The translations under genes were made by a program, and so were the position numbers. The notes under the pieces are model-generated. The model saw nothing but the letters and a program-made list of their open reading frames with translations. It searched no databases and was not told the DNA's origin. A stretch of 5,574 nt of DNA from an archaeon MnTg01 (GTDB lineage: Archaea > Thermoproteota > Nitrososphaeria > Nitrososphaerales > Nitrosopumilaceae): NCBI GenBank assembly GCA_008974855.1, contig BFAR01000023.1, positions 1 to 5,574 of the forward strand, in the 5' to 3' direction. Within the stretch, counting starts at the first letter, position 1. Every line of letters starts with the position of its first letter. Positions 545 to 5,574 of this stretch are shown here, piece by piece.

Positions 545-847
545 TTAAACTCCTAATATTTTTTTAAGCATTGCCCTATAATCAACTTCAGATTTTTCAC
601 TTCCTGGAGCAGGTAATGAAAAAACTAGAGTGTCTTTTTTTGCTCGTAATGAAGTTAGTTCATCATTAATTGGATCTGAAATGTCATCACTAACTAAAAC
701 CAATCCTACATCAGAATCGTCGGTTAGTTTTTTTATTTCGTCAAGGGCTTTATCAGGACCTTCTACGATTATTCCTTGAATTCCAGCTAGTTGAGAGCTT
801 GTTACAAAAACTCTGCTGCCTACAGAGACAATCTTCACAATTTGCAT
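545..847 (-). CDS. atpF: A-type (archaeal/vacuolar-type) ATP synthase subunit F
   Basis: This 100-residue protein matches subunit F of the A/V-type ATPase, the small Rossmann-like subunit that sits with subunit D on the central stalk inside the A3B3 head and helps couple rotation to catalysis. The family pattern is visible. A first strand and turn, Lys-Ile-Val-Ser-Val-Gly (residues 5-10), is followed by a Leu-Ala-Gly-Ile segment near 20-24. The second strand, Val-Gly-Leu-Val-Leu-Val-Ser-Asp-Asp-Ile, lies at about 47-56, where family members read like 'vgiilite.ia'. A Pro-containing strand near 75-80 precedes a C-terminal helix ending Lys-Lys-Ile-Leu-Gly-Val. Length is normal for the family. 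The ATG at 847 has no clear Shine-Dalgarno sequence. No other ATPase subunit is adjacent, so the gene stands apart from the rest of the complex in this window. The cell location is the cytoplasmic face of the membrane complex. Confidence 0.85.
   Translation of the reverse strand: MQIVKIVSVGSRVFVTSSQLAGIQGIIVEGPDKALDEIKKLTDDSDVGLVLVSDDISDPINDELTSLRAKKDTLVFSLPAPGSEKSEVDYRAMLKKILGV
559..565 (+). terminator. Possible T-run terminator for the membrane protein gene
   Basis: Seven consecutive T residues lie on the plus strand about 20 bases after the stop at 540. Archaeal RNA polymerase commonly terminates at U-runs without a hairpin. The run lies inside the 3' end of the opposing ATPase subunit F gene, where it is the antisense of Lys-Lys codons, so it could also be coincidental to coding. 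Confidence 0.3.
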
Positions 848-1568: not shown

Positions 1569-2321
1569 TTGGTGGTAAAAACAGTAATAGTTCCTTCTCA
1601 ACCAGCACTACTTTTGCAAGGTAGCAGTCGAAGTGTAATAATTTCTGATTTACACATTGGTTTTGAAAGTAAATTAGTTTCTAACGATATTTTTCTTGGA
1701 AAAAATACAACTACAGATGAAACAATTAATGAAATAGAATCAATAATAGATTCAACAAAGGCAGACTCCTTGATTCTTTTAGGTGATATAAAATCAAGTA
1801 TTAAATCAATTTCCAAATCAGAGTGGAATGATGTCCCAAAATTTTTAAAAAAAATGAAAGATAGGGTTGATACTGTTTTGATTCCAGGAAATCATGATGC
1901 AAATATTCAAAAACTTGTGCCAGATGGGATTTCGCTTGGTAGCTCAGTAGGAATGGTACTTGAAAATATTTTGCTCACTCATGGTCACACTATTCCATCT
2001 GAAAATTTCTCACATGTGGATAAAATTATCATGGGTCATGTACACCCTGTATTTTTCCAAGAAGGTTCAGTTCTCAATGGACAAAGAGTGTGGGTATCAA
2101 TTAAAACTGAAAAACACCAGATATTTCCATCAGTTTCAGGAGAATTGGAAATTATTATTGTTCCATCTTTTAACAGATATTTCTACGCAACTCAAAAAAA
2201 GTTTTATAAAAAATCAATTTCTCCGATTTTAGAAAAAATAAAAAAATATTCATCAGTAAAAATTGTGACTTTAGATGGTACAATAATTGGGGATGAATCA
2301 ATAATTAATCAAGTTCTTTAG
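1569..2321 (+). CDS. Calcineurin-type metallophosphoesterase, archaeal SbcD-related (COG1407-like)
   Basis: This 250-residue cytoplasmic protein has every core motif of a dinuclear-metal phosphoesterase: Asp27-x-His29 (Ser-Asp-Leu-His-Ile-Gly), Gly72-Asp73, Gly107-Asn108-His109-Asp110, His138-Gly-His140, and Gly156-His157-x-His159-Pro. Motif order and length match the archaeal 'SbcD-related' or ICC-like phosphoesterases, relatives of bacterial PdeM, which is linked to DNA-damage genes. Family members usually have Gly-Asp-x-Lys-His at the second motif; here it is Gly-Asp-Ile-Lys-Ser, so a common His is replaced, though the metal-ligand Asp73 is kept. The C-terminal part (about 205-250) is Lys-rich and unassigned. 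The start is uncertain: TTG at 1569 or GTG at 1572, a one-residue difference; the TATA-like box at 1543-1548 fits either. The substrate is unknown; a nucleic acid or nucleotide phosphodiester is likely. The 3' end overlaps carB by 4 bases. Confidence 0.85.
   Translation: MVVKTVIVPSQPALLLQGSSRSVIISDLHIGFESKLVSNDIFLGKNTTTDETINEIESIIDSTKADSLILLGDIKSSIKSISKSEWNDVPKFLKKMKDRVDTVLIPGNHDANIQKLVPDGISLGSSVGMVLENILLTHGHTIPSENFSHVDKIIMGHVHPVFFQEGSVLNGQRVWVSIKTEKHQIFPSVSGELEIIIVPSFNRYFYATQKKFYKKSISPILEKIKKYSSVKIVTLDGTIIGDESIINQVL
2233..2246 (-). terminator. Possible T-rich terminator downstream of carB
   Basis: On the minus strand this reads as seven T, one A, then six T, about 72 bases beyond the carB stop. 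It would suit archaeal U-run termination, with the carB 3' end running antisense into the phosphoesterase gene. It also encodes a Lys-rich stretch of that gene, so coding can explain the run. Confidence 0.3.
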
Positions 2322-5300
2322 TCAATTGATTTGTAAGGTTCTAATGGGTTTGTAGTAGGTTCATTTTCTTGTAACCATGCAAGTGTTTTTACAAATGATT
2401 CAGCGATTTCTGGGGTAGTAAGAACTGGAATGCCCATCTCTAAGGATTTTCTTCGAATCTGATATTCATCATAAAGCATTCCAACATATTTTTCGAGCGT
2501 TGATGTACTTGGGATATTAATTATAAAATCAATTTTTCTTTCAAACAATAAATCTGCAATGTTGGGTTTTCTATCAGGTTCACTAATTTTATAGACTATA
2601 CCTACGTCTCCAATCTTTTCAGATAAGAACTCAGCAGTATGTTCGGTAGCCATAATGTTATAGCCAAGATCCTTGAGCGATGCAGCAGTTTGAAGAAGTT
2701 TTTCTTTATTTTCTTCACCACCAATGGTAATGAGGACAGTACCCTCTTCAGGTAAATTGTACCCTACAGAAATTAGAGCTTTTGATAATGCATCATAAAA
2801 GCTCTCACCAAAACATGCAGCCTCACCAGTTGATTGCATTTCTACACCTAACATAATATCCGCACCTTCAAGTTGCATAAACGAAAATTGTGGAACCTTA
2901 ATTCCATAATTATTGATTTTTTTCCAGTGATCTTTTGGAATTTTTGGTAGTGGTTTACCAAGAACTGCTTTAGATGCTAAGCTAATTAGATTTATTTGAA
3001 CCAGTTTAGAAACAAATGGCATTGAACGAGATGCACGAATGTTTAGCTCTATTACATAAACTTGACTGGAATTAATCAAAAATTGTAAGTTAAATGGTCC
3101 TTTAATGTTAAATGTTTTTCCAATCTGTTCAGTATAATCGGTAATTGTTTCGATGATTTTATTATTTAAACGCCAAGGAGGAATGCACATCATTGCATCA
3201 CCTGAATGAACACCTGCACTTTCTATGTGTTCGACTATTGCGCCAATCACGACATTTTTTCCATCAGATATACCATCAACGTCAACTTCAAGCGAATTTA
3301 ACATAAATTTTGAAATTACGACTGGATGATCCGGAGATAATGTAGTTGCTTCACCAACATATTTTTTTAATTCTTCTTGTGACCAAACTACTTTCATTGC
3401 TGCGCCACTCAAAACGTAAGAAGGTCGTACTATTACAGGATAACTAACTTCAATTGCAAAGTTTTTTGCTTCAGTGATGTTTGAAAATTCTTGCCATTTT
3501 GGTTGCTTTATGTGAAGTAGGTCTAACTCATGACTAAATTTTGAACGATTTTCAGCTCGGTCTACATCAACAGCAGATGTCCCAAAGATCTTAATTCCGT
3601 GTTTAATAATTTCTGGTGTAAGATTGTTTGCAGTTTGGCCACCTACACAGGTAACCATGCCCTTTGCATTTTCAAATTCATTAATATCAAGAATTCTCTC
3701 AAGTGTAAGTTCTTCAAAATAAAGTCGCTCACAAATATCATAGTCAGTAGATACAGTTTCTGGATTACAGTTTACTACAACTATGTTTTTTTCACCATTT
3801 TCTTGTAATCCCCATACCATATTGACAGTGCCCCAATCAAATTCCACACTACTTCCAATTCTATAGGGGCCTGCACCTATGACTACAATTCCCCTATCTT
3901 TTTCAGCAATTTCCAAATCATGTTTATTGCCTCCATAAGTAAAATAGAGATAGTTTGTTTTAGCAGGCCATTCAGCTGCTAATGTATCAATTTGTTTTAC
4001 TACCGGTAAGATTCCCTTTGTTTTTCTTATTTCCCTAACCTCAAATTCATCTTTTTTTACAGCTCTGCCAATTTGCTTATCAGAAAAACCAAGCTTCTTT
4101 GCCGTATACAACAAATCATAGTCTAACTGGGAGTCTACAAGTTTTTTTTCAGTGTCTACAATGTTTTTTATTTTTTCAATGAACCAAGGATCAATTGCAG
4201 AAAGTTTGTAAATTTTTTCAACTGACATTCCTTTTTTTAACGCTGCCGCTACATGATACAAAATATAATCATCTGGCTTTAAAAGATGATTTTCAAGATC
4301 TTCATCATCAAATGTTTTTTCATTAAGACGATTCAAAACTAATCCGTCTTTTCCTATATCCAACATTCGAATAGATTTTTGAAATGATTCTTCAAATGTT
4401 CTTCCAATTGCCATAACTTCACCTACAGATTTCATGGTAGGCCCAAGTTTACGATTAACAAGTTCAAATTTTTCAAAATCCCAACGTGGGTGTTTGCACA
4501 CAATATAATCAAGAGAAGGCTCAAAACATGCAGTAGTTGCTTTTGTAATTTGGTTTACAAGCTCAGAAAGAGAATACCCTAAACTAATTTTTGCAGACAT
4601 GTATGCAAGTGGATAGCCAGTTGCTTTACTAGCAAGAGCTGAAGAACGAGATAGTCTAGGATTTATCTCAATTGCAGCATATTTGTCAGACTCTGGATCT
4701 AGTGCAAATTGTATATTACATTCACCAACAATACCCACATGTTTTGTTGCACGCAAACTAGCTGATCTTAAAAGATGGTATTCATGATTATCGATTGTTT
4801 GAGAAGGTGCGACTACAATATTATCTCCAGTATGAACTCTCATTGCCAGAATATTTTCCATATTACATACGATGACGTTATTTCCTCCATAGTCTTGAAT
4901 TACTTCATATTCAATTTGCTTCCAGTCTCCAACATACTCTTCAATGAGGATTTGACCTACCATACTTGCATTTAGTCCTCGTCCTACAATTTCATGAAGC
5001 TCTATTTCGTTATGTGCTACCCCGCCCCCTTTACCTCCTAGAGTATAGGCTACTCGGATAATTACTGGATATCCAAGTTCCTTTGCAACTTTTTTTGCCT
5101 CATCAAAGGTTTTCACCGTCTTACTTTTGAGAACTGGAACATCACACTCATCCATAGAATCTTTAAACTTCTGTCGATCCTCTGCTGCAATTATACCTAG
5201 AATTTGAGTTCCAAGTACCTTTGTTCCATATTTTTTTAGAATTCCAAGTTCGTCAAGTTTTACTCCACAGTTAAGAGCAGTTTGACCACCAAATCCCAAC

Positions 5301-5574
5301 ATTATTCCATCAGGTCGTTCTGATTCAATGATTGTCTCTACATACTTTGTAGTGACTGGTAACAAGTACACTTTGTCTGCAAATCTAGTATCAGTTTGAA
5401 TTGTAGCAATGTTTGGATTGATAAGAATACTTTTCAGTCCATCTTCGTGAATTGCTTTGAGGCATTGGCTTCCGGAGTAGTCAAATTGACGGTCGTTTTA
5501 GCGACTTTCGCCGGCTTCTCCGATTTTTATTGCCCCACTACCTAAAACTAAAATCTTTTTTAACGATTCATTTT
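2318..5574 (-). CDS. carB: Carbamoyl-phosphate synthase large subunit, intron-containing, 5' end cut by window
   Basis: CarB makes carbamoyl phosphate from bicarbonate, ammonia (channelled from CarA) and two ATP, for arginine and pyrimidine synthesis. With the 21-base insertion removed, about 1077 residues are visible and perhaps three more lie beyond the edge; E. coli CarB has 1073. Order: N-terminal pre-ATP domain (Leu-Gly-Ser-Gly-Ala-Ile-Lys-Ile-Gly-Glu-Ala-Gly-Glu | Phe-Asp-Tyr-Ser-Gly), Gly-Phe-Gly-Gly-Gln-Thr near 86, first ATP-grasp with Arg-Leu-Ser-Arg-Ser-Ser-Ala-Leu-Ala-Ser-Lys, oligomerisation domain, second synthetase half (Gly-Ala-Gly-Pro-Tyr-Arg-Ile-Gly; Asn-Cys-Asn-Pro-Glu-Thr-Val-Ser-Thr-Asp-Tyr-Asp; Gly-Val-His-Ser-Gly-Asp), and a C-terminal MGS-like allosteric domain from about 940. 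A simple open frame would begin at GTG 5371 and lose 60 conserved residues. Codons from 5572 to 5507 and from 5485 to 5372 are clear CarB sequence in the same frame, separated only by the insertion. carA is probably upstream, outside the window. The stop overlaps the phosphoesterase stop. Confidence 0.93.
5472..5523 (-). other. Full bulge-helix-bulge RNA structure including exon-exon outer helix
   Basis: Beyond the central helix, exon bases 5523-5513 (UCGGAGAAGCC) face exon bases 5482-5472 (GACUACUCCGG). Nine of 11 positions pair (one is U-G), with A-A and C-A mismatches. The strongest block is the six-pair UCGGAG/CUCCGG. Two extra U residues (5484-5483) separate this helix from bulge 2, so the motif is slightly relaxed on the 3' side. 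The outer helix lies in conserved coding sequence, so some pairing may be fortuitous; the central and inner helices depend on the insertion itself. Confidence 0.65.
5486..5506 (-). other. Candidate 21-nt bulge-helix-bulge mini-intron in carB
   Basis: The 21 bases, read on the minus strand, translate as Ser-Arg-stop-Asn-Asp-Arg-Gln between the Glu and Phe of CarB's Gly-Glu-Phe-Asp-Tyr-Ser-Gly motif. The TAA is at 5500-5498. The RNA folds as follows. The central helix pairs GGCG (5512-5509) with CGUC (5491-5488), including one G-U. Bulge 1 is AAA (5508-5506). The inner helix pairs GUCG (5505-5502) with CGAC (5495-5492), closing a 6-base loop CUAAAA. Bulge 2 is AAU (5487-5485). Splicing endonuclease normally cuts after the second bulge base, here 5507/5506 and 5486/5485, and joining gives GGC GAA UUU GAC, exactly the conserved protein. 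The insertion is about 48% G+C (10 of 21) against visibly AT-rich surroundings. Splicing would use the tRNA-splicing endonuclease and an RtcB-type ligase, neither seen in this window. Confidence 0.85.

Follow-up and report, generated by a model that had tools for sequence, protein, structure and literature searches.

The closest described counterpart of the element reported here is the bulge-helix-bulge (BHB) intron in the cbf5 pre-mRNA of crenarchaea, which according to the available part of PMC2738675 (2009) is 16 to 44 bp long, has relaxed motifs and was lost in some lineages. The same text gives cbf5 of Cenarchaeum symbiosum and Nitrosopumilus maritimus as intronless, mentions putative introns predicted in other protein genes (citing a rudivirus paper and a Sulfolobus chapter) and states that relaxed motifs outside tRNA are taken by heteromeric endonucleases. 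By 2020 the crenarchaeal cbf5 mRNA was named, in the accessible portion of PMC7714728, as the sole additional BHB intron reported, and that study added a BHB in the leader of HVO_1309 from Haloferax volcanii. No carB intron is named in the available portions of PMC12397907, PMC6379350, PMC6125680 and PMC12918454. Among the open-access titles and first lines of abstracts listed, none reports an intron in carB or in any mRNA of ammonia-oxidizing archaea.

The window analysed here is an entire contig of 5574 bp from a 1.07-Mb draft genome (69% complete). carB lies on its minus strand and runs from beyond the contig end to position 2318. Exon 1 (5507..5572, minus strand) is in frame, with the start codon beyond the contig end; it translates as NESLKKILVLGSGAIKI-GEAGE and is conserved at the protein level in relatives. 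Exon 2 (2318..5485, minus strand) includes the stop codon. Between GEAGE and FDYSG there are 21 nt (5486..5506, minus strand) with an in-frame TAA at 5498-5500. The minus strand reads GGC GAA / AGT CGC TAA AAC GAC CGT CAA / TTT GAC TAC TCC GG, where the slashes mark the predicted intron ends. A preliminary description of this DNA had placed and read the interruption correctly. It had also claimed that gene calling would lose about 60 N-terminal residues of CarB, and this is what we found: the longest carB ORF begins only at 5371 (1017 aa), and in a profile search TIGR01369 (CarB) aligns to it from profile position 63 on, so that approximately 60 N-terminal residues are missing from the ORF. 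We conclude with high confidence, from comparison of the locus with its relatives, that the 21 bases are a BHB pre-mRNA intron of carB, predicted to be excised so that GEAGE is joined to FDYSG. Elsewhere in the window, the ORFs at 130-540, 932-1228 and 1235-1537 matched no Pfam family at 1e-3. The neighbouring genes encode an ATP synthase F-subunit-like protein (545-847, minus strand; PF01990) and a calcineurin-like phosphoesterase (1569-2321, plus strand; PF00149).

In the proposed structure (all elements on the minus strand) the central helix pairs GGCG in exon 1 (5509..5512) with CGTC in the intron (5488..5491), giving 4 bp with one G-U pair. Two 3-base bulges flank it: AA↓A (5506..5508), with the predicted 5' cut between 5507 and 5506, and AA↓T (5485..5487), with the predicted 3' cut between 5486 and 5485. 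The inner helix consists of GTCG (5502..5505) and CGAC (5492..5495), which show two-sided changes in relatives. The outer helix pairs C GGAG.AG in exon 1 (5515..5522) with CU.CUCC G (5473..5480), which includes the third bases of GAC, TAC and TCC. The preliminary description called this a textbook core. The central helix, bulges and inner helix were as it described them; "textbook" goes too far, since the outer helix does not adjoin the 3' bulge directly (2 bases are unpaired on the 5' side and 7 on the 3' side) and the motif thus falls outside the strict hBHBh' form, which has a flush outer helix. Relaxed forms are known for cbf5, so that failing the strict form still allows membership in the BHB class, and the carB motif is a relaxed BHB. 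Its layout is that of archaeal tRNA introns with relaxed BHB (HBh'; 11 to 175 nt in the sources available), with a central helix between exon and intron end, 3-base bulges and an intron hairpin; unlike those introns, the carB insert sits in mRNA. Structure model R1 matches the window at 5472-5521 with 2.4e-19, a value that includes the window sequence in the model by construction. In the folding calculations, the weakest point of the case is the 50-nt stretch taken alone, which favours a rival structure (-12.5 vs -10.9 kcal/mol; central-helix probability 0.24). Fold energy by itself does not stand out (z -1.2; 22 of 200 shuffles did as well) and was not decisive.

The carB element is similar in several ways to the cbf5 pre-mRNA intron of Desulfurococcales and Sulfolobales, as far as the latter is covered in the available text of PMC2738675. 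Both are short (16 to 44 bp there, 20 to 40 nt in carB), have a relaxed BHB with cut points at bulge position 2/3 (predicted in carB), interrupt a region of conserved codons, are lost in some lineages (a probable loss for carB), are missed by annotators and occur in archaea expected to have a heteromeric endonuclease. The cbf5 range also disposes of the earlier remark that 21 bases is very short. The two differ in gene and in archaeal class, and cbf5 splicing was shown by cDNA (PMC2738675, same portion) whereas carB splicing is predicted. Like the HVO_1309 leader BHB, the carB motif is an mRNA target of the splicing endonuclease (a prediction for carB); the former is located in a 5' UTR and not within a reading frame, as stated in the part of PMC7714728 consulted. 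The putative 12-bp introns of rudivirus SIRV1, described in the same portion of PMC2738675, are likewise very short and found in protein genes of an archaeal system. In contrast to the carB insert, which is fixed at one site across many genera, they are inserted during infection and their splicing is undemonstrated there.

We searched for relatives with a 175-base query from the carB 5' end, insert included. It matched 212 of 250 genomes of the family, and the best-scoring 30 loci all carry the insert; this first set leans towards carriers because the query includes the insert. The insert lies close to the end of its draft contig (68 bases), which could point to an assembly or sequencing artefact. 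Since the other 29 loci of the first set and many independent assemblies, including single-contig genomes such as G022, carry the insert, we regard the probability of an artefact as negligible. A second search avoided the insert and used 300 aa of CarB from the region downstream. Among the best 80 of its 592 confirmed places, the insert is present in 58 and absent in 22. The preliminary description had suggested alignment and covariation across relatives as a check; the two sets combined gave an insert at the same codon boundary, with a covarying inner helix, in 88 of 110 carB loci (Nitrosopumilaceae, Nitrosotalea, Cenarchaeum and Nitrososphaeraceae), which is more than chance would give. Its absence from the other 22 indicates that it is dispensable. 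Among the 88 carriers the length is 20 to 29 nt: 21 nt in 48 loci, 22 nt in 19, 20 nt in 15, 26 nt in three, and 25, 27 and 29 nt in one each.

After repeats were dropped, the 88 carriers left 49 distinct sequences (alignment A1), on which a covariance model was built. At E <= 0.01, 168 of 300 genomes sampled evenly across the class have a match to this model; the strict filters used can lose weak matches, and an assembly that gives no match may simply not contain carB. The match is strong (1e-9 or better) in 155 of the 300; the 13 weaker ones may reflect nothing more than exon edges. Of 398 genomes sampled across the phylum, 48 match at 1e-5, and 47 of these belong to the same order. The sole match outside the order (G454) was rejected: it spans 29 bases, which is the length of the exon edges and leaves no room for an insert. 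All 20 further loci examined from model matches (17 outside the family, one of them, G270, outside the order) carry 20 to 40 nt at the same place. The insert is thus widespread in the class, beyond what a single window shows, and hence probably old. Counts below are given for the 88 carriers or for 138 carrier loci, which include 50 loci from the model search and some repeated genomes (104 distinct 5' regions with insert).

Across the 49 distinct sequences, 96.6% of the cells in the proposed structure are paired. Its covariation score of 0.228 compares with at most 0.098 for slid versions of the structure, and 0 of 500 shuffles scored as high. The plain count of pairs with two-sided change, one of five measures, was reached by 51 of 500 shuffles. 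In the inner helix four of five pairs change on both sides, and the fifth is unpaired in 22 of the 49 sequences. The helices seen include GTCG/CGAC, GTCA/TGAC, GTAG/CTAC, GCCG/CGGC, GCCAG/CTGGC, GCTAGA/TCTAGC and GCGGCC/GGCCGC, the last with a TTCG loop. The central and outer helices show changes on one side only (G-C/G-U). Three of the four central pairs never break and vary only by G-C/G-U, so that their support is conservation and not covariation; the fourth is lost in 3 of the 49 sequences. The central helix has 4 bp in 123 of the 138 carrier loci and 3 bp (CGCA) in 15. The bulges are held as well: bulge 1 is A[AG]↓A in 136 loci and A[AG]↓T in 2, and bulge 2 is A[AGT]↓T in all 138. The insert is real, widespread and conserved in structure, and is very probably a BHB pre-mRNA intron, a new member of a kind that is known but almost empty. 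Three loci (L143, L160 and L161) have GC-rich introns with long inner stems ending in TTCG-type or CGAAA loops.

Lengths of 20, 22, 23, 25, 26, 29, 34 and 40 nt occur among the inserts, and these break the frame. The 57 distinct inserts include 21 whose length is a multiple of three (3n), and all 21 carry an in-frame stop, compared with 21 of the other 36 (Fisher p 3.5e-4, in a test that ignores shared ancestry). A translated insert is disfavoured by both observations. The stops may set the 3n inserts apart from cbf5, in which some introns of 33 to 39 bp keep the frame according to the available text of PMC2738675. A programmed ribosome bypass is another way to keep such an insert out of the protein: the ribosome would take off at the Glu codon, skip the hairpin and land just ahead of the Phe codon, and the RNA would stay uncut. 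A hairpin of frame-independent length between coding parts in register suits this mechanism as well. In ribosome bypass, take-off and landing codons match as a rule. Here the would-be landing codon never matches the take-off GAA/GAG (0 of 138 begin with G), and bypass gives no reason for exon 1 to pair with the intron end, for the pair of 3-base bulges or for the outer exon helix. We consider it very improbable and prefer the BHB intron.

The exon codons next to the insert are also constrained, a further point of contrast with cbf5. The first Gly codon is GGA in 87 of 88 carriers vs 2 of 22 insert-free loci; the corresponding counts are 88 of 88 vs 0 of 22 for GGC, 85 of 88 vs 0 of 22 for GAC, 86 of 88 vs 2 of 22 for TAC, and 85 of 88 vs 0 of 22 for TCC. 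In 135 of 138 carriers and 3 of 22 others, the codon ahead of GGA has C as its third base, and in the structural model this C can add a C-G pair to the outer helix. The 22 insert-free loci represent a few lineages and cannot be treated as independent observations; the codon tests also ignore shared ancestry. Elsewhere in the carriers' exon 2 the shares are 45% for GGA, 18% for GGC, 31% for GAC, 34% for TAC and 6% for TCC. In the outer helix GGAG.AG/CU.CUCC, the A of the first GGA and the C that ends each of GAC, TAC and TCC lie opposite pairing partners, and GGC takes part in the central helix. Judged by these sequences, carriers alone retain, at six flanking exon codons, the synonymous variants that suit the exon helices. 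Together with the stops in the 3n inserts, these choices hint at selection on splicing.

Exon 1 itself evolves as protein. In 75 distinct 12-codon stretches, departures from the majority number 58, 9 and 352 at codon positions 1, 2 and 3, respectively. Exon 2 is open over the 338 codons read in all 20 further loci, and excision in silico gives GEAGE/FDYSG in the carrier loci translated. It might be argued that exon 1 is a relic and the insert tolerated junk, with translation of CarB beginning at an internal GTG/ATG, the start that gene callers assign. The databases appear to agree: of the best 120 of 7211 matches, obtained by querying with the truncated ORF, 103 start within exon 2; the junction is present in 16 and missing from one shorter partial entry. 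A relic would not show protein-level constraint in carriers, the residues that would be lost correspond to the beginning of the CarB profile, and neither the helix covariation nor the exon codon choices are explained by it, which makes a relic extremely improbable next to an intron flanked by two coding exons. Two database proteins, P0005 and P0012, have an intact GEAGEFDYSG junction, yet are nearest to intron carriers (94% to L122 and 96% to L132); they may represent either further intron loss or sequences derived from cDNA/RNA. Among the best 120 of 1275 database proteins inspected for cDNA-like entries, those that cover 95% or more of the Nitrososphaera query reach no more than 74% identity. 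The starts of P0016 and P0019 (Nitrososphaeraceae CarB) look like intron plus exon 1 in another frame (MELLRSEKQAKVNYNDRYFDYSG...), and from their sequences these proteins look mis-called around the insert.

A second intact carB, named in the preliminary description as an outcome that would speak against an intron, was found in none of 13 genomes checked, 11 of them single contigs; each has one full CarB (the window's own genome is only 69% complete). The remaining CarB matches in the 13 genomes are partial, 24 to 40% identical and mostly ORFs of about 380 to 520 aa; a few are pieces of carB. A pseudogene was dropped on the single full carB per genome and the exon 1 constraint. The RNA could also be cut and never ligated, or the hairpin could be a regulatory processing site without spliced product, as in the leader of HVO_1309, where the BHB in the mRNA is cleaved by EndA (PMC7714728, accessible portion). 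This we find scarcely credible: the conserved protein reappears on excision in the carrier loci translated, exon 1 shows protein-level constraint, and with no second full carB found, unjoined halves would leave no full CarB. In the window genome, one EndA-type gene (scoring above the TIGR00324 cut-off) and an RtcB gene are present, and 7 of 7 more complete relatives have two EndA-type genes each. Thaumarchaeota are given as having alpha2-beta2 endonucleases in the part of PMC4090602 available. The gene set of the host is consistent with an endonuclease for relaxed motifs (predicted to be heteromeric) and a ligase. The BHB intron in carB put forward in the preliminary description is accordingly backed by several lines of sequence-level support: covariation, frame-breaking lengths, held cut geometry, exon codons, exon 1 constraint, a single carB, and EndA-type and RtcB genes.

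In the mechanism we propose, the archaeal tRNA-splicing endonuclease would cut the carB RNA between bases 2 and 3 of each bulge, and RtcB ligase would seal the exons, joining GEAGE to FDYSG. The junction-spanning peptide of the spliced product would be IGEAGEFDYSGSQCLK. CarB would be made from the spliced message only: translation of an unspliced one would run into a frameshift or a stop caused by the insert and yield a short dead product. The excised intron may form a circle.

Should splicing be confirmed, carB, which encodes a core enzyme of arginine and pyrimidine synthesis, would join cbf5 as a second such gene. The class that hosts the carB intron includes ammonia-oxidizing archaea, which are globally abundant. 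The insert makes archaeal mRNA splicing testable in cultured strains, with carriers and intronless lineages as a natural comparison, and accounts for database CarB entries that lack the first ~60 residues. A regulatory role of the intron is no more than a possibility. In eukaryotes, 3n introns show a stop-codon bias. We entertain, with considerable doubt, a wider scheme in which splicing by the tRNA machinery would gate carB as an arginine/pyrimidine switch, the intron would predate the split of the known Nitrososphaeria lineages, the exons would be held in splicing-competent codons, and selection would keep the unspliced message untranslatable, as an archaeal counterpart of the eukaryotic bias.

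In a quick CarB tree of 108 rows (L012 and L013 were dropped as short), insert presence has to switch at least 7 times, and starred branches force 3 of these switches; such a tree cannot tell gain from loss. Carriers are found on both the Nitrosopumilaceae and the Nitrososphaeraceae sides. The simplest reading would be a single early gain followed by several losses among marine lineages of Nitrosopelagicus and Nitrosopumilus; alternatively, transferred intronless carB genes may have replaced the original ones in the insert-free lineages. A screen for other split genes took 800 kb of G051 (65% of that genome), kept 883 ORFs after removal of antisense ones and compared them with 1.6 Mb of G022; 741 of the ORFs gave a match of 80 bits or more. 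It detects an intron only where one genome of the pair lacks it. carB, with 22 extra bases, was the only clear split. Six other distinct ORFs were flagged, both directions taken together, and were discarded by eye as alignments outside the gene or noise. Exon 2 of carB in another genome, G040 (locus L283), has an internal TGA where relatives have Arg (ICD*LYFEEL). An intron was rejected there, as this is a simple stop at an Arg position, and the TGA is either a point change or a sequencing error.
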